Source: a virus
Direction: 5' to 3' (one strand)
IMG/VR virus record: IMGVR_UViG_3300008217_000023
Location: 1-35,958 of that record
DNA length: 35,958 nt
Shown here: in pieces, positions 1,217 through 30,392 of the stretch
Layout: each line of letters opens with the position of its first letter
Numbering within the stretch: position 1 is the stretch's first letter
The notes under the pieces: generated by a model
Database searches by the model: none
What the model was told of the DNA's origin: nothing
Seen by the model: the letters and a program-made list of their open reading frames with translations, nothing else
Made by a program: the position numbers and the translations under genes

Positions 1217-1756
1217 ATGAATGATCAGTTTCAAATGATACTTGAAACATTGAGGAGATATAATGCTGGAGAATTAGATTTATCAGATGATAAAGCTAAT
1301 CAACTAGCATCTATTGCCTTCCAAATGAAACAACAATTTAAAACTCGTAGTAAACCAATTCGTAAAGGACTATTTGACCTTATAGATACTGCGGCTCTTG
1401 GAATGATTCCAAATAAATGGAGACCTGAATCTCCAGGGCAAGACCTTTATGGTGAATCTGGTGTAGATAAATTTGCTGGTGGTGTAGGAACATTAGGTGG
1501 TATAGCTACTGGTATAGGAGGTGCTTATAAATTAGCAACAAAAGCTCCTTGGATAGCAAATACAACTGGCAATATAGTTGGAAAAGGAGTTAGTAAAGCA
1601 GGTCAATATGGTAGAACAGGAATGGATAAGATAAAATCTACTGCTGGTCTTATAAAAGAAAGAGAAGCAATTAAAAGAGCTCAAGAAATTGCTTCTAAAT
1701 ATTACAATTCTAATCCTTATAATATTGACTTTACAGGTGTTGCATCAGGTATATAA
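1217..1756 (+). CDS. Probable internal virion protein with glycine-rich segment (179 aa)
   Basis: Residues 1-50 form a charged helical module (ILETLRRYNAG ... FKTRSKPIRKGL). Residues 85-130 are glycine-rich and weakly hydrophobic (FAGGVGTLGGIATGIGGAYK), the kind of segment found in phage ejection proteins that enter membranes. The tail is helical and basic. The start has an AGGT site eight bases upstream. Its order of a short N-terminal helical module, a Pro-Val/Ile-Arg stretch and glycine-rich segments is the same as at the N-terminus of the giant protein that starts three bases after its stop, suggesting the two are packaged or ejected together. That role is inferred; no database family is recognised. 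Confidence 0.6.
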   Translation: MNDQFQMILETLRRYNAGELDLSDDKANQLASIAFQMKQQFKTRSKPIRKGLFDLIDTAALGMIPNKWRPESPGQDLYGESGVDKFAGGVGTLGGIATGIGGAYKLATKAPWIANTTGNIVGKGVSKAGQYGRTGMDKIKSTAGLIKEREAIKRAQEIASKYYNSNPYNIDFTGVASGI

Positions 1757-1759: not shown

Positions 1760-4700
1760 GTGTATCAACCAAATCATTTTAATCGTGTCCGTGAGGTTAT
1801 AAATCTTTATAGGTCTGATCCTCGATCCTTTAATGATGAGGAAATAGACGAACTTCAAGAATTAGCCAATGATGTTGGCATAACGTTCAATCCTGTTAGG
1901 AATGAATTAAATATGGCTAACATAGCAAAAACTGCTATGGGTGGCTTTGTTGAAGGATTAACAACTCTCCCAGTAGGTCAAAAACCTCGTACTACATATG
2001 AAGCAATAGCCCATAGTCTAGGTCATCTAGTAGGGTTTGCTCCTTCTATATTAGCTGGACCATTAGGACTTGCAACAAAAGGTACTGCTAAATTAGGTTT
2101 AAAAACAGTTTCTAAAGGATTAGAAAAGGGAGTTAAAGCATCTCAACTTTTAGATAAAATATCAATTCCTATGGTGGCTTCAAGAGCCACTAAAAAAGGT
2201 GTAGATTATGGATTAAAAAAATCTGGTCTTGAGTCTTTAGAGTTTATGCAAAGAGGTGCAAAGACTAGGGGAATATTTGAAGAAGCAGCAGGACTAGGGT
2301 CTGCAGTTGCAGTATCAAGTATATGGAAAGGACCAGATGCAATGCTCGATGGATGGATGGGAGGTGCTATTGCTGGTGGGGCTTTTGGGGGAATTGGGAA
2401 TTTTGTGTCTATAGGGAATAGACTTAAAATGGGAAATGCTTCTCAAAGAAAGACAGCTGAAAAAGCACTTAGAGGAACTATAGGTGCTACTGTATTAGGA
2501 CTTCCCTCTTATCTTCGTGATGAACCCATAGAAATGGTTATATACGAAACTCTCCTCGGTGGTTTCTTTGGGTACAATGCTCGTCCCTCTCACGAAGTAG
2601 AGGGAGGGAAGTTCATCCAGCGATCTTTATATGGAGCTAAAAAAGGTAGAGTATTCTATCCTGAAGGATCTAAAATATGGAATGAAATGCATCCCAAGGC
2701 TCAAGGTTATATTAAAGATCAATCAACAGACTTAGCTAAAACTTGGTTATATAAAAATTTTGATCCTAAATGGGCAAATGATATTGTAGAGAATGATGTT
2801 GTTTCCAAAGCTAAAGATGTTACCAAGATATCTGAGGCTGACAGAGACGCGTCTTATAGAAACCTTGCCTATGAATTATATAAAGAACAAGCTCCAGATA
2901 AAGGAAAGTCTATCCCAGTCCCTCCTAATCTTGAATCAGATATAGAGGATGGTATATATAGAGAAGAATCTACAAACGATATTGTTTATACTGATATAGT
3001 TGGTATGATGAAAGAAATAGGTAGTTCTATTCAGAAAGTAAGTGGTAATGCTAAAATTACACCGAAACAAGTTGCATCAGATATAAATCAAACATTTAAA
3101 GCATCTAAAAATGCAGATGATTTTATCGGTTCTTTAAAAAAATCTCCACTTTTAGGTAAGTCTATTGATAAGAAAATGGAACGAAGATATAGACAGTTTT
3201 ATCACAATAGAAGTAAAGCTCCTAAGAATGTTTATACTGCTACTATAGATGAAAATGGTGCAAAATTAGAAGTATTAAATGGAAGGTGGGAAGGTAAGAA
3301 GATTGGATCTTCTATGGTCGATATGCCTGTTCATTATCTTGATCCTAATGGTAAACACACTGCACTTACTCATATTAAAGTTAAAAGAGGAGATAATTGG
3401 CAGATAGTAAGTCCTTTTAAAACATCAATGATATGGGATGCAGATAATTTTCGATTAGTTTCTGAAAGATCCGTTACAGGGGATGAATATTTCCAGATGG
3501 AATATAATTTACATAAAGGTAATAAGTATATACATGGTGGCAAAAAGGATAATACTGAAATGTGGATTCGGAATTATCATGAAGATGGTTTAAATATAAG
3601 ACCAGAAGAATTAATCAATTTACTTGCTAGAGATCCTAAGGAAAAAGTAGAACTTATAAATAGTCTTAAAGATTCTAGAAGCCTTGCTGATAAATGGTAT
3701 GATATGCATAGAACTGTATATACCAATAAAGCAGAGCTTGATGGTCGTTTAGGAACAATAAGGTCTATGCATGATAAAGCTTGGGTTTCTAATGTTCTTG
3801 TAATGGCAGAAAGAAATGGTCTTCATACAACAGGTAAGCCTCTTACTAAGACTATTAGTAAGTTAATGGATTCTAACTTTGGTAAAAATGTGATTGATTT
3901 TAACAAAAGAGAACAGATGTTATATGATCAATCTATTCCACAGGACCCGACAGTATATTCACAAGTATTACCCGAAGGGAAACTTAGATATATTGTTTTA
4001 AATGATGCTGAAAACAACTCAAAAACAGATGGTTCTGTTATAATGCGAAGGGATGTTTTTGATAAAGGTATAAATAATATGGGACTACCTGAAAAATCAG
4101 GTATGTTAAAATCAGTTTTTGTAGATAAAAATTATCATGGTTTGATTCATGTTAAAAATGGAACACGCAGAGCCAATGATAAATGGGAAAAGTATCTAAA
4201 TGATAACAAAATAGATGCTGTATTCTTTGCCTCTGCAGTTAAACAGAAGGGTGCATTAAAACCAGCTAATTATACTTATAATAAAAAGTCTGGTAACATA
4301 GAAGTTACTCAAGATACTCCAAGTCAAGGAGTAAGTGAGATGCCAGTTCAGAATTTTAGAATCAATTCATCTACCTATGAATCAGATAAACTTGGTGGAG
4401 TAGGTATTGTAAGACAAATGTCTAGTTTACTTAACCATACACAAACACCTGGAATGGCAAAATATTTTTTTGATACAATTATAAAGCCAAGTCTTGAAGG
4501 TGAGCCAAATTTTAATGTCAAGTATAAAACAGATAAAGACATAATGAATGGTTTAAATACCGATCCAGACTTTGTATTTAAAATGCCTATTAAGGAAATA
4601 CAAAAGCATATTAAAGAAGATACTCCTCTTGCTAGGAGAATTAGAAAGCAAATTATTAAATTAGATGAAGAGGGGCAATTATTTGATTATGGAGATAGTG

Positions 4701-7700
4701 ACTTCGGATCATTCCATGAAAGAAATTTAAGACTTCTACGTTTATCAGATGCCAATCATACTACTTCAAACTTTGATAAATATGGTTACAAGTATTGGGA
4801 GCCTACATATAGAAGATTTATAGTCTCTAGATATATGCAGCCTAAATGGAAATCTTCTTCTAAAGCAGTTCTTATTCCCAATACACCAGATATGCCCACT
4901 GTTAAACAGGGTCGTATTAGATTAGATGATGGACAAAGAAGACTTCCTGTTACTATAGAAGGTATGCCAAGTATTAAAACTCTTGGACAATTATATGATC
5001 TATATACAGCAAAAAATACATCAGCTAAAATTAAAAAACAACTGAGTCCACATATGGATTTAACAGTTGTCAGAGTTCCAGCTGATAGTATTTCTGGAAT
5101 TAGAATACTTCGTCTTGATGGATTTACTGGTGAAAGAGGCTTTGGAGCTTTAACTTCTCCTAAAGATGATGTATATCTTGGGGGAGCAGATAAAGACATA
5201 GATTCTGTTTTTATATATCATGGGTTTGATAAGAAGATCAAAAATGCATATGGAAAAAAAGAGAATAAGAATGAATGGGAAGGAAAGGATGCTAAAAGCA
5301 ATGATGATTTGTTTGTTAAAGGCTCAAAAAAAGAACAGGATATATATAAAACAGTATCTTCAAAATTCTCTCCTTCTATGAGAAAATCTGTAGCTGAATC
5401 TGCTGTTAGAGGTAAGGATGGATTAGGGTTTGGTCTTACTGCTAAGAATGTAGTTATGGAATGGGCAGATATAGTAGCACGAAATGGTGGTACAATAACA
5501 CTACCAATGATTTCAAAAAAGTCAGGGCAACAATATGCAACTCTTGAATTGAAATTAAAAGAGAATGGACATGCTAAGCTTCGTGAAATTGGTAGAGATG
5601 TGGTAAACTATAGTGCAGATAGTGCCGACTATCCTAATATGGCTAGTCCTGTTGAATACAGAGATATATTATTTAATTCTGTATTTGAAGCCACTAAAAA
5701 GCCCTATGGTAAAGCAAAATGGTCACCCGAAAAGGGGACATTTCAACATACAAAGAGTACAGAACTTGGCATTGTTAATGAGTTAATTACCTTTATAAAT
5801 CCTAAAGGCAAAGATTATACATTAGGTAAAGCCCATACAATACACGATCTATCTAATTTCTTAAATAAATTTGAAAAGAACGATAGGGGTATTGATAATA
5901 TCCATTCTCATATTGCAAGACAAATGATTAAAGATGGGGTACACAAGCAATTAGAAAGTAATTATAATCTGCTTGAAATGGGTGATGTTGGTAATATTCC
6001 AGTTGATAAGAATGCAGATAAATTAACAGGGATTAAAGACCTTAATCCTATAACTAGAAAACAATTAGATAAAATATTTGAAAAGGGAGGTAATCCTCTC
6101 GACAAAGTTAGAGACTTTGTATATAAAAATATATTTTCTATTGTAAGTAAAGATACAATAGCAAAGAGAGCAATGGATTTAGTTAATCAATTAAAAACTA
6201 TTGAATTGGCTCCATCTAAGATGCAGAAAATGTTAAACAATATTCGTGAAGAAGCTATGCGAATTAAAGCATTAACTTCTAATGATCCAAATCAATTTGA
6301 TAGTTTAGTGCGTACTTACAAGTTGCAATTAGCAAACGATATGGCTAAGGTGAAACTAGATCCAAAGATTGCTCACGAATTGTTAGATATGTGGTTACTT
6401 AGTCCATTCCAATCTATTAGTAATGGCAAAGTTACAAAAACACAAGTTAGTACACTACCTATTGAATCAGATGCGATATCAGATTCTGCTATACGCAAAA
6501 TGCAGACAAATCTCAATGAATATGTTAGACCCTCCCAGCCACCAAAGAAAGTGCCAGAGAGTAAGCCTAAAGAACCTGAGATACCATTTCTAACAGATAA
6601 ACTTGAACGAATGGCTATTACCGAAAAAGATGCTGAAATAGTAGCAGAATTTAGAACAAATCTAGAGAAAAATCCTATGTGGAAGAAACACTTTAGAGAC
6701 ATGTTCACAGAGTTTACAATGCTATCTGAAGGTATTCCAAGAGACGAAACAACTATCAAAATGAATGATCTATATGCTTTAAATAATTATATGAAAAATA
6801 TGCGATCATATCCTGATAGTCCTGAATTACAGAAATCAGTTTATTACAATGATCTCCGAGAAGTAGATAATAAGATGAAGAAATTTGATCTTACAGTTTT
6901 TCCACAATACCAAACCACAGTTATCACAAAGGATGGTCCTGTTAAAAGAACTGTAAAGAGAAGTTTCTCTACACTTGGAACAATGAGAAATTGGTTACAT
7001 AAAGTATTCTATCAACAAGATGCTGTTTTAGAATCAATAGATCCTATTAATGATGAAATATTTAAATTCAGAAAAGAATTAAATGTTACTGATGCAGGTA
7101 TGATCAATGAATTGGTTTACAAATTAAGAGATATGCGTAGACGTGGTCTAGATTGGAATGATATATATAAAGATAAATTATATATTAAAAACAAGAATAG
7201 AAAATTTCTTGTTGATAAAAAGAATATGACATTAGAAGAAATAATCACTAAGACAGATAAAGATTATACTGATGCTTATGAAAAATTTGGTTCCGAATGG
7301 TTATGGACTAAGAATGACAAAGGTGAAGTATTTGATTGGAATAAATTTGAAGGTACAGGGAAGGTAAATAGATATTTAATTTTTGATAAAAACGGGAAAC
7401 TTGATGTTCTTAACTTTTTAAAACAAGCAGTTCTACCTGTTGAGGCAGGTGGAAAGCTTCCTCATATACCTTTAGATACAATACTTCGTTTCCATTATGA
7501 ATATCATATGGAAAAAGTATTAAAAAAATTAACCAAAGATATGCCTTCACAAAACATGTTAAAGTGGAGACGAGAATATAGACAAGGTAAAATGCCTATA
7601 TATGAAGGTCACAAGAAAGTAGGAGAAAAAGAATGGACAAAATATAAACCAATACAACAAATCAAAAGTAATGAATATTTTCCTAAACGATATGGCTTTA

Positions 7701-9805
7701 ATAAAAAAGCACGAAGGGAAATAAATAACTATATTGATATTGAAGCACAGAGAATATATGATGCAGAGTTTAAGAAAACTGGAAGTAAAAAGAAAGCTGA
7801 AAAAGCAATGGAAATTTATAAAGCTAAAATGCACATGGCTGTTGAAGGTTCTATTGCTGAATCCTCTGGTATTGAAACACATATTCTAGATGAAATTGCT
7901 GCCCGTATTGACTATGAGAAATTATCTGCTAGTGAAATTGCTAATAGGCTTCATGATATTGGAGCATTTACTCGTCCTGATTCTTCTATTGAAAGGGTAC
8001 TTGATCTTCCAGTAGGCTTTGATACAAGCCCAGAAGTTATAAATAAATATATGAAACAGATTATTAGATCTCATTACAAACTATTGGGAGCTGCAATGTC
8101 TAACTATCGAATAGATAGTATGATTAAAAATCAAGCCTTTGAAACAGATCTAAATGGTAATAAAGTTAAATATACAAAAGAGCAATTAGCCAAATTAAAG
8201 GAAGATGGTTATAGAAACCATACAGATGTATGGGCTGATTACTTGAGATTTTATGTTCGCGATTCTTTTGGTCATCAAACAACATTTCCTCAAAGGATAG
8301 TAGATTCTATGGGTAAAAATGACTCATTAAAATTAAAGAAAAATTTCTATTATCTTACAAGTGATCAAGCCATTATTAATAGTATAGAATCATTAAATAA
8401 AAAATGGATTGAAAAAACAGGTCATAATTTTCCATTATTAAGAGGAATGCCTAAAGGCAATAGTCCTGAAATACAAAAAGCTAAAGCAGAATTTTATTCC
8501 AGAGTTATACACAAGTGGGGTGGTTTAGAGGCAAGATTCCAATTATTAACACTACTTGCAAATACTGGAACTGCCACAGCTAATGTATTTGGAGGGCAGA
8601 CGATGAATATATCTTCTGCTGGGTTTAGAAATGTAGCCAGATCACACAATATGAAATGGTTAACCAAAAATGTTTTATTAGATAAAAAAGGTAAACCAAC
8701 TATTCATTTAGAAAACGGTGATCCAGTAAAAGATAGGAAATCATTATATAAATGGATTGCAGAACAAGGTGCAATTGATTCCTTTATAAAAAATGAATTT
8801 GAATTAAATGATGGACTTAAAGTAAACATTGGTAAAGAAAAACTAAGAAGTTTAAATAATTTTCGTAAAGAATTAACCAAATTACTAAAGTCTAATCCAG
8901 ATGCTAGAGATGAAACTTTAATGGAATTAGCTAAACGCTATGGAGTTTCAGATTTAATGTTAAAGGCAGGTGGATCATTTATGCAAGGCAGTGAAAGATA
9001 TTTAAGAACTATATCTTTTATGTCCCATGCTCTCCAAGCAAGAGATGCATTTGGGAAGCACGGTGCAGATATAAAATTAGATGATCCTTATGTAGTAGAT
9101 ATGGGACTAAAAGGAATTGAAAACACACAATACCTATATCATTCTGCATTTAGACCTGCATTTATGCGAACATCATTAGGTAAAGTTTTAACCAGATTTA
9201 AACTATTTGCTTTTCAATCTGTTAGGATTCGTAAAGAATATTATAAGATGGCTAAACAGATGGGCTTTGAGGATGATGCTCAAGCTATGAAGAAATTTAA
9301 AAATCTAATGACTGCAGACCTTTTGACCCTCGCCCTGGGCAGTATCTATAAGTACTCTTTATTTGATACTGCCCTACCCCCTCCTTGGGATTGGGCACAG
9401 GAAACAGGTGAATGGTTATTTGGAACTAAACGGGATAAGGAAAGGGCTTTCTTTGGAACATATCCGTACCCACTTGCTCCCTTGCAAGTTATTACTCCAC
9501 CTGTTGCTAGAGTACCGATGGCAATATTTTCTGCAGCACTTAACAATGACTGGGATAGATTTATGGATTACCACTTACATACAATGTATCCTTTTGGAAG
9601 AATTGTCAGAAATTTAGATCGTGTAATATATGATAAGGATGCAGGACCCGACATCATAAATGAAATACCTAGTGGAACTACCTTTGGTAGATTTATGAAA
9701 CAATTTTTTAGAATGCCTGTGAATAAAATTATGTCAAGGCATAAAAGAGATCAGTTGAAAGAACGTAGAACTGATTATATGGAGCAACTAATGGAGGCAA
9801 TATGA
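1760..9805 (+). CDS. Giant virion protein, candidate two-barrel (crAss/QDE-1-type) RNA polymerase (2681 aa)
   Basis: GTG start just after the previous stop; one unbroken 8-kb frame, about a fifth of the genome. Residues 1-45 are a helical module, and 82-106, 176-220 and 238-275 are glycine-rich hydrophobic stretches, as in ejected virion proteins. Residues 745-831 contain NDAE, DGSVIM (757-762), GMLKSVF and SAVK (825-828). Residues 1105-1148 contain RVPADS, GFTG and LGGADKDIDSVFIY with D1144, D1146 and D1148. Known family fact: two-barrel RNA polymerases of crAss-like phages and eukaryotic QDE-1 use a DxDxD loop in the second barrel and a Lys in the first. The match in order and spacing is my inference. 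From about 1300 to the end it is mostly helical and charged, with a hydrophobic conserved-looking stretch near 2517-2580. Alternatives: a polyvalent virion protein whose barrel motifs are chance, or an inactive relative. No T7-type polymerase motif was found. Confidence 0.6.
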   Translation: MYQPNHFNRVREVINLYRSDPRSFNDEEIDELQELANDVGITFNPVRNELNMANIAKTAMGGFVEGLTTLPVGQKPRTTYEAIAHSLGHLVGFAPSILAGPLGLATKGTAKLGLKTVSKGLEKGVKASQLLDKISIPMVASRATKKGVDYGLKKSGLESLEFMQRGAKTRGIFEEAAGLGSAVAVSSIWKGPDAMLDGWMGGAIAGGAFGGIGNFVSIGNRLKMGNASQRKTAEKALRGTIGATVLGLPSYLRDEPIEMVIYETLLGGFFGYNARPSHEVEGGKFIQRSLYGAKKGRVFYPEGSKIWNEMHPKAQGYIKDQSTDLAKTWLYKNFDPKWANDIVENDVVSKAKDVTKISEADRDASYRNLAYELYKEQAPDKGKSIPVPPNLESDIEDGIYREESTNDIVYTDIVGMMKEIGSSIQKVSGNAKITPKQVASDINQTFKASKNADDFIGSLKKSPLLGKSIDKKMERRYRQFYHNRSKAPKNVYTATIDENGAKLEVLNGRWEGKKIGSSMVDMPVHYLDPNGKHTALTHIKVKRGDNWQIVSPFKTSMIWDADNFRLVSERSVTGDEYFQMEYNLHKGNKYIHGGKKDNTEMWIRNYHEDGLNIRPEELINLLARDPKEKVELINSLKDSRSLADKWYDMHRTVYTNKAELDGRLGTIRSMHDKAWVSNVLVMAERNGLHTTGKPLTKTISKLMDSNFGKNVIDFNKREQMLYDQSIPQDPTVYSQVLPEGKLRYIVLNDAENNSKTDGSVIMRRDVFDKGINNMGLPEKSGMLKSVFVDKNYHGLIHVKNGTRRANDKWEKYLNDNKIDAVFFASAVKQKGALKPANYTYNKKSGNIEVTQDTPSQGVSEMPVQNFRINSSTYESDKLGGVGIVRQMSSLLNHTQTPGMAKYFFDTIIKPSLEGEPNFNVKYKTDKDIMNGLNTDPDFVFKMPIKEIQKHIKEDTPLARRIRKQIIKLDEEGQLFDYGDSDFGSFHERNLRLLRLSDANHTTSNFDKYGYKYWEPTYRRFIVSRYMQPKWKSSSKAVLIPNTPDMPTVKQGRIRLDDGQRRLPVTIEGMPSIKTLGQLYDLYTAKNTSAKIKKQLSPHMDLTVVRVPADSISGIRILRLDGFTGERGFGALTSPKDDVYLGGADKDIDSVFIYHGFDKKIKNAYGKKENKNEWEGKDAKSNDDLFVKGSKKEQDIYKTVSSKFSPSMRKSVAESAVRGKDGLGFGLTAKNVVMEWADIVARNGGTITLPMISKKSGQQYATLELKLKENGHAKLREIGRDVVNYSADSADYPNMASPVEYRDILFNSVFEATKKPYGKAKWSPEKGTFQHTKSTELGIVNELITFINPKGKDYTLGKAHTIHDLSNFLNKFEKNDRGIDNIHSHIARQMIKDGVHKQLESNYNLLEMGDVGNIPVDKNADKLTGIKDLNPITRKQLDKIFEKGGNPLDKVRDFVYKNIFSIVSKDTIAKRAMDLVNQLKTIELAPSKMQKMLNNIREEAMRIKALTSNDPNQFDSLVRTYKLQLANDMAKVKLDPKIAHELLDMWLLSPFQSISNGKVTKTQVSTLPIESDAISDSAIRKMQTNLNEYVRPSQPPKKVPESKPKEPEIPFLTDKLERMAITEKDAEIVAEFRTNLEKNPMWKKHFRDMFTEFTMLSEGIPRDETTIKMNDLYALNNYMKNMRSYPDSPELQKSVYYNDLREVDNKMKKFDLTVFPQYQTTVITKDGPVKRTVKRSFSTLGTMRNWLHKVFYQQDAVLESIDPINDEIFKFRKELNVTDAGMINELVYKLRDMRRRGLDWNDIYKDKLYIKNKNRKFLVDKKNMTLEEIITKTDKDYTDAYEKFGSEWLWTKNDKGEVFDWNKFEGTGKVNRYLIFDKNGKLDVLNFLKQAVLPVEAGGKLPHIPLDTILRFHYEYHMEKVLKKLTKDMPSQNMLKWRREYRQGKMPIYEGHKKVGEKEWTKYKPIQQIKSNEYFPKRYGFNKKARREINNYIDIEAQRIYDAEFKKTGSKKKAEKAMEIYKAKMHMAVEGSIAESSGIETHILDEIAARIDYEKLSASEIANRLHDIGAFTRPDSSIERVLDLPVGFDTSPEVINKYMKQIIRSHYKLLGAAMSNYRIDSMIKNQAFETDLNGNKVKYTKEQLAKLKEDGYRNHTDVWADYLRFYVRDSFGHQTTFPQRIVDSMGKNDSLKLKKNFYYLTSDQAIINSIESLNKKWIEKTGHNFPLLRGMPKGNSPEIQKAKAEFYSRVIHKWGGLEARFQLLTLLANTGTATANVFGGQTMNISSAGFRNVARSHNMKWLTKNVLLDKKGKPTIHLENGDPVKDRKSLYKWIAEQGAIDSFIKNEFELNDGLKVNIGKEKLRSLNNFRKELTKLLKSNPDARDETLMELAKRYGVSDLMLKAGGSFMQGSERYLRTISFMSHALQARDAFGKHGADIKLDDPYVVDMGLKGIENTQYLYHSAFRPAFMRTSLGKVLTRFKLFAFQSVRIRKEYYKMAKQMGFEDDAQAMKKFKNLMTADLLTLALGSIYKYSLFDTALPPPWDWAQETGEWLFGTKRDKERAFFGTYPYPLAPLQVITPPVARVPMAIFSAALNNDWDRFMDYHLHTMYPFGRIVRNLDRVIYDKDAGPDIINEIPSGTTFGRFMKQFFRMPVNKIMSRHKRDQLKERRTDYMEQLMEAI

Positions 9806-9945
9806 TCAAGTTAATCGTATTTTCCGTACTACTCAATACAGGAGAGATGCATGCTGTTATGCCCGATGATACGAAAATAGAAGCTCGTAGGCGTGGAGGT
9901 AAGGGCAATAAGAAGCGTAGACGGGGAGGCAATGGATTAAGATGA
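9802..9945 (+). CDS. Small protein with hydrophobic N-terminus and Arg/Gly-rich tail (47 aa)
   Basis: The ATG overlaps the stop of the giant gene as ATGA. The N-terminus (MIKLIVFSVLLNTGEM) is short, basic and hydrophobic like a signal peptide or anchor. Residues 29-47 are strongly cationic (ARRRGGKGNKKRRRGGNGLR region). The combination could be a membrane-acting lysis accessory, a cationic peptide exported or buried in the virion, or a nucleic-acid-binding minor virion protein. It overlaps the next small membrane protein by four bases, so the two are coupled. I recognise no characterised family. Confidence 0.6.
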   Translation: MIKLIVFSVLLNTGEMHAVMPDDTKIEARRRGGKGNKKRRRGGNGLR

Positions 9946-10088
9946 ATTTTATAACAGAATATTGGGAGCAATTAACTGCATTTGTGCTACTAGTTACCAT
10001 TCTTACAAGAATGAGAGTAGACATTGATGTATTAAAAGATAAAGTTAAGGTTCTATTTAACCTATGGAATCAAAAAAATGGAAAATAA
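9942..10088 (+). CDS. Small single-span membrane protein, holin candidate (48 aa)
   Basis: Starts at an ATGA overlap with the preceding cationic protein. Residues 11-22 (LTAFVLLVTILT) form one hydrophobic span, followed by a basic amphipathic helix (RMRVDIDVLKDKVKVLFNLW). Size, single span and charged C-terminus fit small phage holins, and its place at the end of the late rightward operon fits a lysis role. There is no endolysin signature next to it, so the role stays a guess. Its stop overlaps the next gene by eleven bases. Confidence 0.55.
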   Translation: MNFITEYWEQLTAFVLLVTILTRMRVDIDVLKDKVKVLFNLWNQKNGK

Positions 10089-10329
10089 ATCGCCTCAATG
10101 GGCGAAATCTTCCAATGAAAGGTTAAAAGCTTTAGAAAAAGATTCACATCCACCTACTAATTGGGAGGATAGAATAGTCAAAATGGAAGATACTTGGAAA
10201 GAATTATATCATAAACTAGTGTTGGAATTTCACGAAGTAAAAAAAGAGGTAGACTTGCTTAGAACAATTTTACATACCTATTTACCTATAATTGAAGAGA
10301 ATAATGATGATATGGAGGGAACTATATAA
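10078..10329 (+). CDS. Small coiled-coil protein of unknown function (83 aa)
   Basis: The product begins MENKSPQWAKSSNERLKALEKD and has a heptad-like helix from residue 32 to 66 (VKMEDTWKELYHKLVLEFHEVKKEVDLLRTIL), ending in an acidic tail. It has no membrane segment or catalytic motif. It overlaps genes on both sides in the small-protein cluster after the giant gene. The ribosome site is weak, so coupling is likely. Phage genes of this build can be holin partners or tail chaperones; nothing decides between them. Confidence 0.55.
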   Translation: MENKSPQWAKSSNERLKALEKDSHPPTNWEDRIVKMEDTWKELYHKLVLEFHEVKKEVDLLRTILHTYLPIIEENNDDMEGTI

Positions 10330-10540
10330 CCTTATATTTGCTGTATCATTTATATTAGTTGGAAAAATCGGAGACTATTTAGATGAACACCCTCCTAATT
10401 ATACCTGCCCACCCTACTGTGATGTAGATCACAAATGTTTCACAAACCTAAAGGAAAAATCAAATGAAATACGTCCTAGATATGAGTTGGAAAATACTGA
10501 TAGCCTATATACTATATCGGATATTCCTAATAATAACTGA
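10304..10540 (+). CDS. Small membrane-anchored Cys-rich protein (78 aa)
   Basis: A start at ATG 10304 is preferred because GAAGAGA lies a few bases upstream; the frame also allows TTG at 10292. One hydrophobic span (LIFAVSFILVGKIGDYL) is followed by an outward-looking segment with Pro and Cys residues (HPPNYTCPPYCDVDHKC), which suggests a periplasmic part with disulfides or bound metal. That layout recalls spanin-like or secreted lysis accessories but lacks a lipobox, so no spanin call is made. It overlaps the 83-aa gene before it and the 40-aa gene after it. Confidence 0.45.
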   Translation: MMIWRELYNLIFAVSFILVGKIGDYLDEHPPNYTCPPYCDVDHKCFTNLKEKSNEIRPRYELENTDSLYTISDIPNNN

Positions 10541-10586
10541 TTATGTAGAACTAGCCTATGCTATGGCTCGATATCAGTTTCAGTAG
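10464..10586 (+). CDS. Tiny membrane protein at the end of the rightward operon (40 aa)
   Basis: ATG with a clear AAGGA site about eight bases upstream (near 10450-10455). Residues 8-25 (SWKILIAYILYRIFLIIT) form one hydrophobic span with few charges. It lies in another frame within the end of the 78-aa gene and runs 26 bases into the end of the convergent leftward gene that stops at 10561. Nested membrane micro-proteins at this position are typical of lysis cassettes, but no family is recognised. Confidence 0.45.
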   Translation: MKYVLDMSWKILIAYILYRIFLIITDYVELAYAMARYQFQ

Positions 10587-10776
10587 ATTCTATTATAGAA
10601 AGTACTGCATTTATTAACCATTCTTTATCAGCAGAACGAAGAATAAGACCTCCACTTATACCCTTTACAGGATTATAATTAGGATTAACTATAATACAAC
10701 CATTGTTTTCAATGGCTTCTATAATTTGTCTTATTTTGGTTTTTTCTACCCATTTGCTTACATCGTCTATCAACAT
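10561..10776 (-). CDS. Hypothetical protein (71 aa), last gene of the leftward operon
   Basis: A very strong AAAGGAGG ribosome site (complement of about 10780-10788) fixes the ATG at 10776, even though it lies 68 bases inside the preceding gene. The product is a mixed alpha/beta small protein (IRQIIEAIENNGCIIVNPNYNP ... LILRSADKEWLINAVLSIIEST). No motif is recognised. It ends where the rightward late operon ends, so the two transcription units converge and overlap by 26 bases. Confidence 0.6.
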   Translation of the reverse strand: MLIDDVSKWVEKTKIRQIIEAIENNGCIIVNPNYNPVKGISGGLILRSADKEWLINAVLSIIESTETDIEP

Positions 10777-10915
10777 ATACCTCCTTTCGATAACAATTTA
10801 CGCAGTAAGGTGTATTTAAATCTAAAAGAACTGCGTTTTTATTACATTGACTACAACTATTGAAATATGATTTAATAATTTCGTTAGCGTAATTAATTGA
10901 AATGTATCCAATCAT
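10709..10915 (-). CDS. Small zinc-ribbon-type protein (68 aa)
   Basis: Two CxxC pairs (CSQC near residues 21-24 and CVNC near 38-41) spaced about 13 residues apart form a compact zinc-ribbon pattern. They are followed by a basic tail (RKEVYVDRRCKQMGRKNQNKTNYRSH). Such mini-proteins in phages usually bind nucleic acid or a host protein; no partner can be inferred. The start overlaps the end of the upstream gene by 23 bases, and its own end is overlapped by the strongly initiated 71-aa gene. Confidence 0.55.
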   Translation of the reverse strand: MIGYISINYANEIIKSYFNSCSQCNKNAVLLDLNTPYCVNCYRKEVYVDRRCKQMGRKNQNKTNYRSH

Positions 10916-11147
10916 TCATTCGATTATCGGCTCTTGGCTTAACTTTCCAAGAATATACAGGTGTTTTTAAAAACTTGTATATCCACCAACATCGACCATT
11001 ATCACTAGCACTTAGGGCTGCTTTCTCAGTTTGCTGATCAAAAGTCAGCCCCTTGTATTCATTTGTGAATATGCTTTTCCCTGTTGGTCCAGTCTTGAAT
11101 CGACCACGACCCAACCTTGGGAATGTCTTCTTTTTTGGGTATGCCAT
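10893..11147 (-). CDS. Hypothetical basic protein (84 aa)
   Basis: ATG at 11147 with AAGGA eight bases upstream. The N-terminus is basic and Gly/Lys/Arg-rich (MAYPKKKTFPRLGRGRFKTGPTGK), which suggests nucleic-acid contact. The rest is a small Trp-rich domain (NGRCWWIYKFL, YSWKVKPR, NDWIHFN). No family is recognised. It overlaps its upstream neighbour by 89 bases, an unusually long overlap, but both frames show protein-like composition and this one has a ribosome site. Confidence 0.5.
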   Translation of the reverse strand: MAYPKKKTFPRLGRGRFKTGPTGKSIFTNEYKGLTFDQQTEKAALSASDNGRCWWIYKFLKTPVYSWKVKPRADNRMNDWIHFN

Positions 11148-11355
11148 TAGTAAGTTCCTTTATCTTAGTTGGATCAACTTCTGCGTTTCGTATGTATTCA
11201 GCCATATTTATTATCCTCACCATTAGACAAAAAAGGTATCCAACATACCTTTCTTGATCATCTTTTTTCCTCACCCAATACCCGATAAAGCCATATAAAC
11301 ATCTAAAGGCTTCCTTTAAGGTAGATCGTCTGCTATATTCAATGTAGTCAGACAT
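11059..11355 (-). CDS. Hypothetical protein (98 aa)
   Basis: Helical protein beginning MSDYIEYSRRSTLKEAFRCL. The middle part (YVGYLFCLMVRIINMAEYIRN) is amphipathic rather than a clear membrane span. The C-terminus (VGSWSIQDWTNREKHIHK) lies in the region shared with the 84-aa gene in another frame. It overlaps the 69-aa gene before it by 40 bases. No motif is recognised and the function is unknown; it belongs to the small-gene tail of the leftward operon. Confidence 0.5.
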   Translation of the reverse strand: MSDYIEYSRRSTLKEAFRCLYGFIGYWVRKKDDQERYVGYLFCLMVRIINMAEYIRNAEVDPTKIKELTNGIPKKEDIPKVGSWSIQDWTNREKHIHK

Positions 11356-11525
11356 TCTTTTATTGCACCCTCCACATCTATTTTTATATTCCGTAATTGA
11401 TTATCATAATGTGATTGTTTAAGACGTAATGCTTCAATCTCCTTTTGCATCCAGTTAAGTCTTGCATTCACGCCATCTTGCCAATCAGCTTCATAAGTAA
11501 TCTTATCCTTATCAAAAACAGACAA
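11316..11525 (-). CDS. Small coiled-coil protein with TTG start (69 aa)
   Basis: The frame starts with TTG at 11525, overlapping the end of the 30-aa membrane peptide gene, so initiation is probably by translational coupling; no ribosome site is visible. A helix at residues 17-45 (DGVNARLNWMQKEIEALRLKQSHYDNQLRN) has coiled-coil spacing. An internal ATG at residue 26 is the alternative start. The function is unknown. Confidence 0.5.
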   Translation of the reverse strand: MSVFDKDKITYEADWQDGVNARLNWMQKEIEALRLKQSHYDNQLRNIKIDVEGAIKECLTTLNIADDLP

Positions 11526-11604
11526 GATATAATGCTATATAAAAGAGTAATGATATTCCAAGTAAACCTGAAAATACCCTAACTCTCGCCCACTGTACTT
11601 TCAT
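11512..11604 (-). CDS. 30-aa membrane peptide
   Basis: ATG with a strong GGAGG site eight bases upstream (complement of about 11612-11617). The product has a basic N-terminus (MKVQWARVRV) followed by one hydrophobic span (FSGLLGISLLFYIALYLVCF) that runs to the end. This is a clean small inner-membrane peptide, overlapping the 95-aa gene upstream and the 69-aa gene downstream. Possible roles include membrane modulation or superinfection control; none is shown by sequence. Confidence 0.5.
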   Translation of the reverse strand: MKVQWARVRVFSGLLGISLLFYIALYLVCF

Positions 11605-11866
11605 CAATAATACCTCCATTGAAAAATTCATAAGTTTCTATCATTTCACCTGTGGAAGTGGCTACATTGATAATGATACCATTATCTGTTGCATCCACAT
11701 CTACTCTGTAATAATCGGTTTCTATAGCGATTGAGTCCAAGTTCAAATTTGCTATAGCCACTTCCAAGGCATCTGTATATTTAGAACGAGTAGCACCTGT
11801 ATTCATTATTTTCTGCAATACTCCTTTCAGATTTTGCAAAATATCGACTGTAGGTGTATCTTTCAT
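11579..11866 (-). CDS. Hypothetical protein (95 aa)
   Basis: Starts at ATG 11866, overlapping the stop of the nuclease gene by four bases. The N-terminal half is helical (VDILQNLKGVLQKIMNTGATRSKYTDALEVAIANL). The C-terminal half looks like beta strands with acidic loops (YYRVDVDATDNGIIINVATSTGEMIETYEFFNGG). It has no cysteines, membrane segments or catalytic motif. It is co-transcribed with the PDDEXK nuclease and primase-helicase, but no role is inferable. Confidence 0.55.
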   Translation of the reverse strand: MKDTPTVDILQNLKGVLQKIMNTGATRSKYTDALEVAIANLNLDSIAIETDYYRVDVDATDNGIIINVATSTGEMIETYEFFNGGIIDESTVGES

Positions 11867-12204
11867 TTTTTCGATATTAAATCCATAAAATGATCAAGAG
11901 GCATACACGCCCAAGGCTCTGTTCCATTACGTTTTACTACAATCAAAGGAATTTGATTGTCTATTATATTCTCTTTAGCTTGTTCAGTAGTTTTCCAAAA
12001 CTGAAGTCGTTCAACATTTTTACACTCAATAGCATATGGAATCTTCAAACGGGCTTGTGGGGACAAGACTATATCTTGCCCCACCATACCCATTGTTTGG
12101 GATTTAATGTCATCTTTATGTAGTTTAGGAAATACATCTCTCAACATATCTCTAACGAAGTTTTGCAGTTTTCTACCTTTAGCTTTAGACGATTTGATAT
12201 TCAA
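11863..12204 (-). CDS. PDDEXK-type endonuclease (113 aa)
   Basis: Begins with a basic helix (KAKGRKLQNFVRDML). Then come MGMVGQDIVLSPQAR with candidate metal ligand D44, and IPYAIECKN with E60 and K62, giving the D...ExK core of the PD-(D/E)XK nuclease fold. The end (LIVVKRNGTEPWACMPLDHFMDLI) resembles small phage and VRR-NUC-like or resolvase-like nucleases. It probably cuts or resolves DNA intermediates during replication and recombination, fitting its place next to the primase-helicase. The start is TTG, overlapping the previous stop as TTGA, so it is probably coupled. Substrate specificity is unknown. Confidence 0.75.
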   Translation of the reverse strand: MNIKSSKAKGRKLQNFVRDMLRDVFPKLHKDDIKSQTMGMVGQDIVLSPQARLKIPYAIECKNVERLQFWKTTEQAKENIIDNQIPLIVVKRNGTEPWACMPLDHFMDLISKK

Positions 12205-12386
12205 GGTATAAGTTTATTCCACCAAATACTTGTACCAAACCTAATGTCTATTGGTCCTAAGGACAAGCTTAATTCTGCATGATCTCCCTGCGATACATAC
12301 CAATGTATAGCAAAACCGAACACCCATAGGAAGACAATCTGCAAAAGCATATTTCCACCTTTATTGAGGTATTTGAACTTAATCAT
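12201..12386 (-). CDS. Small membrane protein (61 aa)
   Basis: Residues about 13-28 (LLQIVFLWVFGFAIHWYV) are one membrane span, followed by an ordered tail (AELSLSLGPIDIRFGTSIWW). ATG 12386 overlaps the primase-helicase stop as ATGA with GGAG nearby. An internal ATG at residue 13 also has a good GGTGG site, so two forms are possible. It lies between the primase-helicase and the nuclease. The function is unknown. Confidence 0.55.
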   Translation of the reverse strand: MIKFKYLNKGGNMLLQIVFLWVFGFAIHWYVSQGDHAELSLSLGPIDIRFGTSIWWNKLIP

Positions 12387-21685: not shown

Positions 21686-21713
21686 TACATACTCCTATTT
21701 ATTATAAATAAGG

Positions 21714-21737
21714 GAAAAAGAGGGGAGGACGACCCCC
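21714..21737 (-). terminator. Intrinsic terminator
   Basis: A GGGG/CCCC stem around 21722-21737 is followed in the leftward strand by TCTTTTTCCC. It lies after the 45-aa gene. The sequence after the T run (CCCTTATTTATAATAAATA) closely matches that after the terminator at 21922-21945. Confidence 0.65.
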
Positions 21738-21745
21738 ATCTTTAT

Positions 21746-21883: not shown

Positions 21884-21921
21884 TGGTTCTCTCCTTTTAT
21901 TTATAGTATCATAAATAAGGG

Positions 21922-21945
21922 AAAAAGAGGGGGATTAACCCCTCC
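21922..21945 (-). terminator. Intrinsic terminator
   Basis: GAGGGG (21927-21932) pairs with CCCCTC (21939-21944), followed in the leftward strand by CTTTTTCCC. It separates the 113-aa gene from the 45-aa gene. Confidence 0.65.
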
Positions 21946-21956
21946 GAATGGATATA

Positions 21957-22855: not shown

Positions 22856-22856
22856 C

Positions 22857-24049: not shown

Positions 24050-24317
24050 TCCAAAAGCTATTGGTAAACTATTTGATTTGGATAAAAAGAAAAAACTTGA
24101 GATAAAAGACGATGTAAACCATCCAGACCATTATACTATGGGAATTGAGGTGACAGACTTCGTTGCATCTTGGGAAATGGATTGGTTTAGGGGTAATATC
24201 TTAAAATATGTCGTTAGATGCCCATTTAAGAACAATCCTCTAAAGGATTTGAAAAAAGCTAAATGGTATCTAGATGATCTTATCGAAAGAGTAGAAGATG
24301 GCAAATACATCCTCTAA
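24018..24317 (+). CDS. DUF3310 protein (99 aa)
   Basis: NHPDHYTMGIEVTDFV (34-49), GNILKYVVR (59-67) and DLKKAKWYLDDLIE (77-90) are the signature of DUF3310 (SaV-like), a small phage nucleotide-kinase-associated family of uncertain function. TTG start with AAGG seven bases upstream; it overlaps the TerS candidate by 32 bases and TerL by 20. Its position between terminase genes is unusual, as DUF3310 mostly sits among metabolism genes. Confidence 0.85.
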   Translation: MKEKQNHPTPSPKAIGKLFDLDKKKKLEIKDDVNHPDHYTMGIEVTDFVASWEMDWFRGNILKYVVRCPFKNNPLKDLKKAKWYLDDLIERVEDGKYIL

Positions 24318-25800
24318 TAAAGATATAATTAATTCTTTAAAAGGGGATATGATCCTTTTTGGCAAGGTAGTAATGCCGAATATGTTTACTGTAGACTCTC
24401 CAGACTTTCATCATGAGGTTGGAAGTATCCTTTTAGACGAAAATGAAAAACAAATCAATATAATTGCACCGAGAGGACATGCTAAATCCTCTATTGTTGG
24501 TGGCGTATTTCCCTTATATCACATATTGTTTGATAAAGGACCAAAACTTATTGTACTTGTATCCAGAACTCAAGATCACGCAATTAAACTTCTTGGTACT
24601 ATTAAAGATGCTCTTGATTATAGTGATCAATTAAAATCGGTATTTGGATATTGGGGGATGCATAGTGCTAAATCATGGGCTAAATCAGAAATAATTCTAA
24701 AAGATGGATCCATGATTGTATGTAAAGGAACGGGACAACAGCTTCGTGGAATAAAACATGGTAATCAGCGACCTACCCTGATTATACTAGATGATCCAGA
24801 AGATGAGAATAATACTAAGACTTCTGAAGCAATGGAACAGAATTTACGTTGGTTACTACAATCTGCTGTCCCATCCTTAGATCCTGTCAAAGGGAGGTTG
24901 GCAGTTATCGGAACTCCTATACATCAAAGATGTATTGTAGAAACTTTGAAGGATATGAAAGGTTGGCTTAATAGATGCTATAAACCAGATATGGCTGGTG
25001 GTAAAGCATTATGGGAAGCATGGCAACCTATAAAAAAACTGGTACAAAAAAAGGATGAACTCAGCTCAATAGGGCGAGTATCTGTTTTTTATAGAGAATA
25101 TCTCTGTGAGGTAGTGGGAGATGAAGATCAGCTCTTCAAGGAGGAGTACCTTCAGAGTTATGAGGGAACAATTACTACCAATGATAATGGTAGTTATCTT
25201 AAAATTACAAAATTAAATAATAAGAAAACCTATGAGGAAAGACCTGTTAATGTATTTATTGGTATAGATCCTGCTTCTTCGACCCGACAAACTGCCGACT
25301 TCTCAACAATTGTCCCTGTTGCAGTTGACAAAGAAGGAAATAGATTTGTATTACCATATTTTCGGAAACGGGTCTCTCCTATGGTTTTAGCTAATAATAT
25401 TATAGAATATGCTAAATTGTATAAACCTACCAAAACTAGGATAGAATCTGTAGGTTATCAGGAGATGTTGAGAGAATATGTACGAGATAAGTGCGAAGAA
25501 GAAGGAATGTTCATATCAGGATTGGAAATAAAAGAAAATCCTAGAAATTCTAAATCTGCTAGATTAGAAACTATGGAACCTGTTTTTGCACAAAAGAAAG
25601 TATTTATTGAATCTTCTATGGAAGATCTTAAAAATGAACTTTTATTATACCCCAGATCAAAACATGATGATCTTTTAGATGGAATGTACTATGCTATGAA
25701 AGGATGTTACAGTCCTTTTCATTCTGGATCTAGCTATGATAAAGTTAAGAAAGAGAGCAAAATTAAAAGATTTATAGATAATTCTTGGCTAACAGCATAG
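24298..25800 (+). CDS. terL: Terminase large subunit (500 aa)
   Basis: ATPase part: Walker A APRGHAKSS (57-65), Walker B LIILDDPEDE (161-170) with the catalytic Glu at 168, and coupling motif GTP (205-207). Nuclease part (RNase H fold): IGIDP with D324, RIESV with E383, and KHDDLLDG with D457/D458. It translocates DNA into the prohead and cuts it at the portal. The length is normal. The start overlaps the DUF3310 gene. Confidence 0.95.
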   Translation: MANTSSNKDIINSLKGDMILFGKVVMPNMFTVDSPDFHHEVGSILLDENEKQINIIAPRGHAKSSIVGGVFPLYHILFDKGPKLIVLVSRTQDHAIKLLGTIKDALDYSDQLKSVFGYWGMHSAKSWAKSEIILKDGSMIVCKGTGQQLRGIKHGNQRPTLIILDDPEDENNTKTSEAMEQNLRWLLQSAVPSLDPVKGRLAVIGTPIHQRCIVETLKDMKGWLNRCYKPDMAGGKALWEAWQPIKKLVQKKDELSSIGRVSVFYREYLCEVVGDEDQLFKEEYLQSYEGTITTNDNGSYLKITKLNNKKTYEERPVNVFIGIDPASSTRQTADFSTIVPVAVDKEGNRFVLPYFRKRVSPMVLANNIIEYAKLYKPTKTRIESVGYQEMLREYVRDKCEEEGMFISGLEIKENPRNSKSARLETMEPVFAQKKVFIESSMEDLKNELLLYPRSKHDDLLDGMYYAMKGCYSPFHSGSSYDKVKKESKIKRFIDNSWLTA

Positions 25801-25884: not shown

Positions 25885-28101
25885 ATGTCCCAAATCATTG
25901 ATCCTGAAGTTCGCTTAACACAGCAACTTCTACAAGAATATTCGTCTGCCCGTGAAGACTGGGCAAGACAAGCAACTGAAGATAACGAGTTTAGAAATGG
26001 AAATCAATGGCAAGATGTCCATGCTAAAACACTTCGTAATCGAAATCAAGAACCTGTTGTAGTAAATGTAGTTCATTCTGCAGTTGAACAGGCTAAAGCC
26101 CTCCTTACCACTAATAAACCTAAATTTCAATCTACAGGTAGAGAAAATAGCGATATAAAAACAGGTCGTGTCTTTTCAGATCTAATGACCTATGTTTGGG
26201 ATAACTCTAATGGCAATGTTCATTTAAAACAAGCTGTTGATGATTATTATGTAAAAGGCATGGGCTGTCTATATGTTAGCTATAATCCACATTTTGATTA
26301 TGGTAAAGGTGAAATTACCTTAAAGGCTATAAATCCACATGATATATATATAGATCCTAATTCTCAAGACCCCTTTTGTCAAGATGCATCTTCCATTATA
26401 ATAGGGAAGAAGCATATGAGAAGTCAACTTTTAGCAGCTTACCCCTCATATGAAGAACAAATTAATAAAGCTCAGGCTACTTCATATCTACCTTCGGAAA
26501 ATCCAGTAAGATCAGGTATCAATCAAGTTGTTCCAACTAATTCACAAAAAAAATTTTCCGATGATGATGAGGAGTTAGAAGCTTTTGAACGACTTACAAA
26601 GGTTAAGGTTCCATATATAAGGGCATATAATCCTTATTTAAATCGTGAGGATATTTTAACAAAAGAACAATATGAAATATACATACAATCTCCTGCCTAT
26701 AAGGTTATTACAAAAGCTGGTGAGAATTATGAAACTGATTCTCGTTCTATAAATCAATTAGATATTATGGTTGAAAGGTTCGGGGAAGTATGGCACATGG
26801 TTCCAGATATGATGACAGGACAACCAGTTCCTGTTAGCGGACCAGAATCTCCTAATATGATTCCTGATTCTACTACAATAGTTGAAAAGACATCATTTGC
26901 TGATATGATTCAGGATGAAAAAATTAAAACAAACGAATGTTCAGTAGATCATGTAAAATGTTACTTCTCTATAGGAAATGAGTTATTATTTGAAACTATT
27001 TATGCTGTTGACCATTATCCATTAGTTCCTATAATGAATCGTCATAATAGGAATCCTTACCCAATTTCTGATGTAAGGCTAGTTAAAGGACTTCAAGAGT
27101 ATATAAATAAAATAAGATCTCTTATAATAGCACATGCCTCCTCTTCTACAAATGTAAAACTTTTAATCCCTAGAGGTAGTATGGATAAAAAACACTTGGA
27201 AGAGGAGTGGGGGAGAGCTGGAACTGCTGTAATCGAATATGATCCAGAATTGGGTCAACCTATCGTAGCAGGTCCCATTCCCCTTCCAAATGAACTTTAT
27301 AAAAATGAAGCTGAAGCTAAGCAAGATATAGAAAGAATACTTGGAATATATGCACTTATGCAAGGAGATCAGGGTGCAGCTCCACAAACATACAAGGGTA
27401 CAGTTGCACTAGATGAATTTGGACAGAGAAGAATTAAATCTAAAAAGGATGATGTAGAATCTGCATTAAATCAATTAGCCAAAGTCGTTATTGCTTATAT
27501 GCAATCTTATTATACTAGTGAAAAAGTGATGCGTCTTTTGCATCCAAATACAGCTCCTACTGAAATAGTTATTAATAAAGATATATATGATCCTATTACA
27601 GGGGCATTTTTAGAAAGACTAAATGATATAACAGTAGGGAAATATGATATCATTTGTGTTTCAGGTTCAACCCTTCCATCTAATAGGTGGGGGCGTTTTG
27701 AATATTATATGCAATTATATGAAAAGGGTATAATTGACCAAGTTGAAGTTTTAAAGCAGACTGATGTCGCAGATATGGAGGGTGTACTTGAAAGGGCAGA
27801 TCAAAGAAACCAGATGTCTCAAAAGATTCAAGGGCTTGATGAAGAGATTAAAAAGCTCAAGGGCGATCTGCAGACTGCACAAAGAGAATCTCTCCATGAC
27901 CGTAAGAGAGTGGAATTAAAAGATTTTGAGAAAAAACTTGCAAAAGCTGAAGCCAAAGTTGAAATGGCTGCAAAGCTTTATGATGCAAGGTCCAAGGATG
28001 AACTAGGCAAACTAAAAGAAGCTGTAAAGGATGTGACTTCCGAGTCGGATTCAGAAAACAGTCAATCTCAGATGAATGCCGCACTTCTAGGACTTGATTA
28101 G
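25885..28101 (+). CDS. P22-like portal protein (738 aa)
   Basis: N-terminal residues (EYSSAREDWARQATEDNEFRNGNQW), QEPVVVNVVHSAVEQAKALL, and INPHDIYIDPNSQD near residue 152 are typical of the podovirus P22-type portal family; the size fits as well. The C-terminal about 100 residues form a long coiled coil (near 640-700: IQGLDEEIKKLKGDLQTAQRE and after), as in the barrel of P22-like portals. It forms the dodecameric DNA channel at one vertex and the base for adaptor proteins. AGGAG precedes the ATG. Confidence 0.9.
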   Translation: MSQIIDPEVRLTQQLLQEYSSAREDWARQATEDNEFRNGNQWQDVHAKTLRNRNQEPVVVNVVHSAVEQAKALLTTNKPKFQSTGRENSDIKTGRVFSDLMTYVWDNSNGNVHLKQAVDDYYVKGMGCLYVSYNPHFDYGKGEITLKAINPHDIYIDPNSQDPFCQDASSIIIGKKHMRSQLLAAYPSYEEQINKAQATSYLPSENPVRSGINQVVPTNSQKKFSDDDEELEAFERLTKVKVPYIRAYNPYLNREDILTKEQYEIYIQSPAYKVITKAGENYETDSRSINQLDIMVERFGEVWHMVPDMMTGQPVPVSGPESPNMIPDSTTIVEKTSFADMIQDEKIKTNECSVDHVKCYFSIGNELLFETIYAVDHYPLVPIMNRHNRNPYPISDVRLVKGLQEYINKIRSLIIAHASSSTNVKLLIPRGSMDKKHLEEEWGRAGTAVIEYDPELGQPIVAGPIPLPNELYKNEAEAKQDIERILGIYALMQGDQGAAPQTYKGTVALDEFGQRRIKSKKDDVESALNQLAKVVIAYMQSYYTSEKVMRLLHPNTAPTEIVINKDIYDPITGAFLERLNDITVGKYDIICVSGSTLPSNRWGRFEYYMQLYEKGIIDQVEVLKQTDVADMEGVLERADQRNQMSQKIQGLDEEIKKLKGDLQTAQRESLHDRKRVELKDFEKKLAKAEAKVEMAAKLYDARSKDELGKLKEAVKDVTSESDSENSQSQMNAALLGLD

Positions 28102-29096: not shown

Positions 29097-30392
29097 ATGG
29101 CAGCTAAAATATTAGAAGCCTCAGGTGTGCTTTACACCGATCGAAGGGACTTCTACATTGATCCACAAGTTGTTAAAGAACTGTGGACTGATGTAGCCCC
29201 CTTTACAACCGTGCTTTCCAATAAGGAAACACGGGCAACAAATGACCCAATCTTTAAGATGTTTGAACATCGTAATCCTTGGGTTAAACAACAATGTACT
29301 GTTGATGGCGATATTGCAGCTCTTGCAGATGGTAATACTCTCTCAGCAGAATGTGCAGTTGATGCTATTGTTGGTATGAATAGTGAAGTTGATGATTCTT
29401 GGCTTGGACTTCTATTCGAAGTCTGGGATTCAACATTAACAACTAATAGAGGTAATATTGTTGTATCAACCGTTGAAAGTACGTCATCGTTTAAGTTTAA
29501 AAACATGACAGGTTCTTCAATTGATGTGGCTGATAATGACATATTGATAGTAGTTGGTAATGCACATGGTGAGGGAACGGAAGCTCCTGAAGCATGGGCA
29601 GACGAACTGAAAACTGTTTGGAACTCTTGTCAGATTTTCAAGACACCTCTTGAAATCACAGGAACTCTCTTACAGGCTTCTCTTCGTGGTGAATCTTCAG
29701 AACTAGCCCGTTTGCGTAGTCAGAAGAATCAGGAACACAAGATGCAAAAAGAAAAAGCATTCTTATTTGGAACAAGGGTTGGTGGTACTAACCTTGATCC
29801 TAATGATGCTGATACTTTTGCAGATGGTGGTAGAACTGATTCAGGTTCGAAGTTAATCCGTTCTTGCTATGGCATGGTAAGTGCAGTTAATGAATATGGA
29901 AACACTTCAGGAGATGACCAGAATGTATTTTCTGTGACAGGCTCTACATATTCATATTCAGATTTCGTGGATGACATGGAAAAAGTATTCCAGTATATCC
30001 CTGAATCTGGAGTGAAACGTGCATTTGTTGGTGCTGGTGCTTTAGGTTATTGGTCTAAAATGGCAGGTAACTCAGGCATGGCAGGTTCCTCTGGATGGAC
30101 TGTTAATGTTGGCGATATGAAACGCGATTCTCTTGGGTTCAATTATAGAACTCTTGAAACACCTCATGGTATGCTTCAGTTGATTCCAACTCCAGCATTA
30201 CGTGGACCATATAATGGTTACATGATGATTGTTTCAGAAGAAAATCTGTTTCATGCTCAATATCGTAGTCCAATGTTCCAAGCTAACATCAAGACAGAGA
30301 ATGCTTATGATGGTGTGAAAGACCAATACTTCTCAGACGAAGGAGTTGGTATATCACTAATTGAAAGTCATCATCTGTTCAAGATCGCATAA
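29097..30392 (+). CDS. Major capsid protein (431 aa)
   Basis: The product (MAAKILEASGVLYTDRRDFY ... TPLEITGTLLQASLRG ... ELARLRSQKNQEHKMQKEKAFLFG ... TPHGMLQLIPTPALRGPY) resembles the DUF5309/SU10-type HK97-fold major capsid proteins of podoviruses. It follows the scaffold by six bases and precedes decoration and adaptor genes. Residues 110-165 form a beta insertion (STVESTSSFKFKNMTG), perhaps a surface domain. Length and neighbours fit. ATG with GGAGATAA upstream. Confidence 0.88.
   Translation: MAAKILEASGVLYTDRRDFYIDPQVVKELWTDVAPFTTVLSNKETRATNDPIFKMFEHRNPWVKQQCTVDGDIAALADGNTLSAECAVDAIVGMNSEVDDSWLGLLFEVWDSTLTTNRGNIVVSTVESTSSFKFKNMTGSSIDVADNDILIVVGNAHGEGTEAPEAWADELKTVWNSCQIFKTPLEITGTLLQASLRGESSELARLRSQKNQEHKMQKEKAFLFGTRVGGTNLDPNDADTFADGGRTDSGSKLIRSCYGMVSAVNEYGNTSGDDQNVFSVTGSTYSYSDFVDDMEKVFQYIPESGVKRAFVGAGALGYWSKMAGNSGMAGSSGWTVNVGDMKRDSLGFNYRTLETPHGMLQLIPTPALRGPYNGYMMIVSEENLFHAQYRSPMFQANIKTENAYDGVKDQYFSDEGVGISLIESHHLFKIA

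Follow-up and report, generated by a model that had tools for sequence, protein, structure and literature searches.

The locus raises the question of whether the giant protein encoded at the far end of a phage late module contains an RNA polymerase and, if so, whether this polymerase would be carried within the virion. The window, by which we mean the whole stretch of DNA analysed, is a 35,958-bp fragment and its relatives measure 44–50 kb; both may be incomplete. A sequence-only reading had placed the two barrels of crAss-like virion polymerases in the central part of the protein, and the residues it quoted were found in the translation at 757–762 (DGSVIM), 825–828 (SAVK), 1105–1110 (RVPADS), 1121–1124 (GFTG) and 1140–1148 (LGGADKDID). 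The features considered are collected in Table 1.

Table 1. Features of the giant gene and of the late module in the window (res., residues of the giant protein)
Feature	Position	Strand	Remarks
Large terminase subunit, start of late module	24298..25800	+	phrog_38, E 2.7e-74
P22-like portal	25885..28101	+	PF16510, E 4.4e-59
Major head protein	29097..30392	+	phrog_1328, E 4.7e-13
Adjacent upstream protein, 179 aa, Gly-rich	1217..1756	+	Counterpart of relatives' small proteins with the N-terminal motif of the giant
Giant protein, 2681 aa, GTG start	1760..9805	+	N-terminal virion-type region, central two-barrel RNA polymerase (predicted), long C-terminal region
N-terminal region, res. 1–480	1760..3199	+	~45-residue motif YRxNPxxFxxxxxDELxxLA, Gly-rich hydrophobic stretches; proposed virion/ejection part
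RNA polymerase core, res. 480–1400	3197..5959	+	AlphaFold2 model; fold matches 6VR4 and QDE-1
First barrel (DPBB-B-like), res. 749–830	4004..4249	+	Invariant D757, K784, K799, K828
Second barrel (DPBB-A-like), res. 1098–1155	5051..5224	+	RVPADS...LGGADKDID; hhalign to crAss-like enzymes
Metal-binding triad D1144, D1146, D1148 (DKDID)	5189..5203	+	In 79 of 79 sequences
Bridge helix and trigger-loop region, res. 1200–1300	5357..5659	+	SPSMRK...GKDGLG...SADSADYP; hhalign, long helix in model
C-terminal region, res. 1481–2681	6200..9802	+	Mainly helical; AlphaFold2 pLDDT 77.5

Relatives and conservation of the active-site motif

The DxDxD motif occurs once in the giant protein, and 57% of composition-preserving shuffles of the protein also contained one, a frequency at which we set the motif alone aside as evidence of a polymerase. 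When an RxP 30–45 residues upstream was included, the proportion of shuffles was 2.9%. Because its chance frequency is high the motif is weak by itself, and its significance comes from conservation and alignment.

With the giant protein as sole query, nothing rose above noise in Pfam, PHROGs, PDB sequences or IMG/VR, and tblastn of 50,697 phage records with the protein, its parts and its distant members returned no relative. A terminase query yielded 53 IMG/VR contigs, and a homologue of the giant protein was present in 6 of the 27 records examined. These six homologues, chosen independently of the motif via the terminase gene, were 24–35% identical to the window protein. All kept D757, the three first-barrel Lys and the three Asp; the triad is DKDSD in five, and the most divergent one has the canonical DVDGD. 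Contig G045, reached via the terminase alone, had DKDID like the window.

A profile search gave 127 relatives of the giant protein, and 79 sequences were aligned. Invariant wherever covered were D757, K784, K799, K828, R1105, P1107, G1113, R1115, G1142, D1144, D1146, D1148 and D1287, with the three first-barrel Lys (K784, K799, K828) found in 78 of 78 sequences. The triad read DKDSD in 38 sequences, DKDAD in 24, DVDGD in 8 and DKDID in 6. The second search for relatives used patterns containing the Asp residues, so that their conservation there is partly built in; the conservation of the Lys residues and of D1287 lies outside this bias. More than 100 related marine contigs encode the giant protein, and those lacking the gene apparently end before its expected place and are therefore no counter-examples.

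Conservation of the three Asp had been suggested as a check on the polymerase assignment, and all three were kept in every homologue. The catalytic Asp and Lys are invariant although overall identity falls to about 20%, as selection for catalysis gives, and this argues against the view that the fold has lost its catalytic activity and survives in the virion for structural purposes or for DNA ejection. We consider a dead fold very improbable, even with a giant protein of virion type and an unusual DKDxD in place of D[FY]DGD, both of which would suit it.

The top matches in BFVD were two unnamed deposited giants (A0A516LW39 and A0A516LAI4), followed by crAss-like proteins and then by phage proteins named RNA-dependent RNA polymerase. 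Since unnamed UniProt homologues exist, sequences of this family have already been deposited. The polymerase family is new to the annotated resources searched, and the survey in PMC10770324 may already list a member.

Profile comparison with crAss-like virion polymerases

The comparison set consisted of eleven crAss-like enzymes from deposited genomes. A seven-sequence core of the window family was aligned to them locally by hhalign around DPBB-A with a score of 53.5 (E 2.7e-5), against 23.8 for the best of 60 block shuffles, 15–22 for the reversed profile and 16–21 for other segments of the giant protein. The global alignment of the same core extended over 591 columns (95.9% probability, E 2.9e-9), and with 79 sequences the local E value was 4.5e-6. 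Taken apart, the first barrel matched the crAss DPBB-B region (E 6.5e-4; reversed control 0.65) and the bridge-helix region matched its crAss counterpart (E 0.008; reversed 0.5), with controls for these separate comparisons at E 0.2–0.8 overall. The co-linear match spanned both barrels and the bridge-helix region. An hmmsearch of PDB chains with a 49-sequence family profile did not find 6VR4, the structure of the phi14:2 virion polymerase gp66, and gave helical chance matches only.

The residue pairs aligned between the window protein and gp66 were D757/D962, K784/K1012, K828/K1065, Q886/Q1116, R1105/R1322, P1107/P1324, G1142/G1359, the triad Asp with D1361, D1363 and D1365, G1223/G1548 and D1287/D1612, and nearly all of these gp66 residues are shared by all eleven crAss-like enzymes. 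K799 was displaced in the 79-sequence alignment; a nearby Lys (K1027) is invariant in the crAss-like enzymes. The sequence-only reading had claimed a match in order and spacing, and this held against gp66 (RIP...GSDFDIDK, with K1012, K1065 and D1361/D1363/D1365). Its choice of K828 as the first-barrel Lys agrees with the pairing to K1065, invariant in the crAss-like enzymes, and its choice of D1144, D1146 and D1148 as the metal triad agrees with the pairing to the three gp66 Asp.

The window protein and gp66 are alike in being single-chain, giant late proteins with the same barrel order and sequence-profile homology, and equivalents of gp66 D962, K1012, K1065, Q1116, R1322, D1361, D1363, D1365, G1548 and D1612 are conserved in the window family. 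They differ in that identity is about 10% and the window family has DKDxD and different flanking regions. At the second triad position most window-family members have Lys (mostly DKDSD, DKDAD or DKDID), whereas Phe or Tyr occupies it in the crAss-like enzymes collected (D[FY]D[IV]D). The triad of P23-45 gp96 is DFDGD (PMC10770324).

Predicted structure of the polymerase core

The AlphaFold2 model of residues 480–1480, built from 49 sequences, had a pLDDT of 86.3 and a pTM of 0.86. The best PDB match of the core model in Foldseek was 6VR4 (E 2.3e-9), followed by QDE-1, RDR2, cellular large subunits and the P74-26 enzyme. Using VIA-align, we obtained Z scores of 17.0 for QDE-1 (573 residues, 5.3 A), 13.7 for P32 gp64 and P74 gp62, 12.2 for 6VR4 (755 residues, 5.1 A) and 11.4 for P23-45 gp96. 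A long helix at model positions 726–762 lies in the bridge-helix region. The prediction that a structural model would reveal two-barrel polymerase architecture was thus borne out. QDE-1 and RDR2 have the same fold and are eukaryotic free enzymes, whereas the window's enzyme forms part of a giant protein of a phage.

The best 50 fold matches were RNA polymerases throughout, and the bridge-helix region and Lys pattern match those of crAss-like enzymes. Both results argue against a chance motif or a different double-psi barrel enzyme, for example a PolD-like DNA polymerase, and we regard either as extremely unlikely. Such a reading could draw on the frequency of DxDxD alone by chance, and on the scan of window ORFs, which showed no DNA polymerase. 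PolD itself was set aside, with none among the fold matches listed.

Both barrels, the catalytic Asp and Lys, the bridge-helix region, the fold and the clade-wide conservation are supported by these computations, and on the predicted model it is close to certain that the central part of the giant protein is a two-barrel RNA polymerase core. The core is complete within a single chain and of the same type as that found in the particles of crAss-like gut phages.

Flanking regions and probable packaging in the virion

The N-terminal region was present in 76 of the 79 proteins, with the other three cut by contig ends, and both the N- and C-terminal regions are conserved in nearly all members. At least nine relatives encode, just upstream of the giant gene, a protein that starts with the ~45-residue motif of the giant (E 6e-8 to 1e-3). 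The upstream protein of the window scored under the threshold and its motif was assigned by visual comparison, and both this protein and the giant run on into Gly-rich hydrophobic stretches. The simplest reading is that the motif common to the two proteins would act as a packaging or ejection signal.

The model of the C-terminal region resembles phage giants with large polyvalent protein domains, and its comparison with the PDB gave no chain above Z 6. For one member of the family, phrog_11358 matched the same part at 1.5e-7. A likeness to PLxRFG/DarB-like proteins was not used (E about 1).

Packaging of the giant protein in the virion is likely because the polymerase sits in the middle of a giant multi-domain protein with conserved flanks, is encoded at the end of the virion module, and is preceded by an N-terminal motif shared with the neighbouring protein. 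A two-barrel polymerase that is made late and acts inside the cell, in late or replication-linked transcription, without being packaged would fit the precedent of P23-45, which also has a non-virion two-barrel polymerase (PMC10770324). A fusion of 2456–3412 residues (the range of the complete homologues), with conserved ends and a place at the end of the virion module, is not what an intracellular enzyme would suggest, and the motif in common with the neighbour and the resemblance of the C-terminal model to other phage giants likewise speak against it. We therefore judge an unpackaged enzyme unlikely.

Among known systems, P23-45 gp96 is a two-barrel polymerase fused to a giant virion protein, the tape measure (PMC10770324). 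Both gp96 and gp64 of this phage are two-barrel polymerases like the window's, and a place within a giant virion protein, as gp96 has, is proposed for the window's enzyme; gp96 lacks a clamp and lies in a long-tail tape measure, whereas the window phage has P22-like head genes and no tape measure was identified in it. The N4 virion RNA polymerase is T7-like, with a fold unrelated to the two-barrel enzymes, and offers a functional analogy. Its T7-like domain (PF00940) was found neither in the window nor in 7 relatives, with a T7 positive control at 1e-110, and a polymerase of N4/T7 type was set aside. RNA_pol_Rpb1_5 (PF04998) was also absent from the window, in keeping with the earlier remark that no other RNA polymerase was visible there. 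N4 (Schitoviridae) ejects its giant virion RNA polymerase with its DNA (PMC12633501).

Our main reading, to which we give a probability of about 0.8, is that the giant protein is a two-barrel RNA polymerase, most likely packaged, with flanks for packaging and ejection, which enters the cell early and transcribes the early module; we infer its catalysis, packaging, ejection and early-gene role. The protein would be packaged in the particle, its N- and C-terminal regions would serve packaging and ejection, and the polymerase would enter the cell together with the first DNA. It would then transcribe the leftward early module (helicase-primase, ERF recombinase, ParB-like and small genes), and this early transcription would precede or dispense with the host polymerase. 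Entry with the DNA and transcription of early genes would be analogous to the virion polymerases of crAss-like phages, P23-45 and N4 (PMC7886860, PMC10770324, PMC12633501). The packaged-polymerase reading predicts early transcription without host polymerase in phages of the clade.

Phage genome, clade and host

The late module runs from the terminase through the portal and major head protein to the giant gene at its far end, and the leftward module encodes DnaB-like helicase-primase, ERF, ParB-like and DUF932 proteins. Relatives of 44–50 kb have a similar layout, with the giant gene also at the end of the late module; terminal repeats, looked for in the relatives as proof of completeness, were not found. 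Terminase, portal and capsid belong to phrog_38, phrog_156 and phrog_1328 here versus phrog_6681, phrog_6547 and phrog_11589 in phi14:2, so the window phage is not a crassvirus, and the sequence-only reading was right that crAss-like head genes are absent. Crassviruses are ~100 kb, whereas the clade of the window phage, with its P22-like portal, is about half that size (~45–50 kb).

Two-barrel polymerases carried in the virion have been characterised from crAss-like phages and from Thermus phage P23-45. If small marine phages with non-crassvirus head genes have one throughout an abundant clade, the enzyme would be either ancient or passed from one phage lineage to another. Among small phages, injected RNA polymerases are probably much commoner than known. 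The family also provides a very divergent new sequence set with which the ancestry of cellular and RNA-interference polymerases can be traced.

The terminase clade comprises at least 570 stretches in IMG/VR. Among 84,980 bacterial and archaeal genomes the sole relative was a 46-kb contig of the Prochlorococcus single-cell genome AG-436-M02 (QCPL01000010.1), which is a hint toward Prochlorococcus as host but could also be a co-sorted particle. Two 2OG-Fe(II) oxygenases are encoded on this contig. In the Prochlorococcus-cell phage (L189) the late module includes a second giant ORF of 2169 aa (7589–14098, − strand) with no Pfam match. One contig of 89,793 bp (G042) carries two different clade terminase genes, with 63% and 64% identity to that of the window, and is either a chimeric or joined assembly or two phages.

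Hairpin elements in the early module

In the window (21694–22600, − strand) a hairpin with a T-run, followed by a conserved block, CTCTTTTTCCCYTRTWTAT, stands before each of the small early genes. The same hairpin type was observed in two relatives, G032 (22500–24470, conserved block GCTCTTTTTTTATGTTAA) and G031 (40090–44460, conserved block CTCTCCCTTTTTTATGAACTA). These elements lie about 25–45 nt upstream of the start codon; G028, G033 and G039 have few or no such elements, and the five late modules tested have none. The elements could serve the phage polymerase as promoters or could end transcription between short units. We offer as a tentative and rather doubtful extension that these small (~45–50 kb) marine phages, some perhaps on Prochlorococcus, form a major unrecognised clade in which infection would start with the phage's own ejected DKDxD two-barrel polymerase, acting on clade-specific hairpin/T-run promoters or terminators. 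Between the early and late modules of the window, at 22640–22900, lies a GC-rich non-coding stretch of structured appearance.
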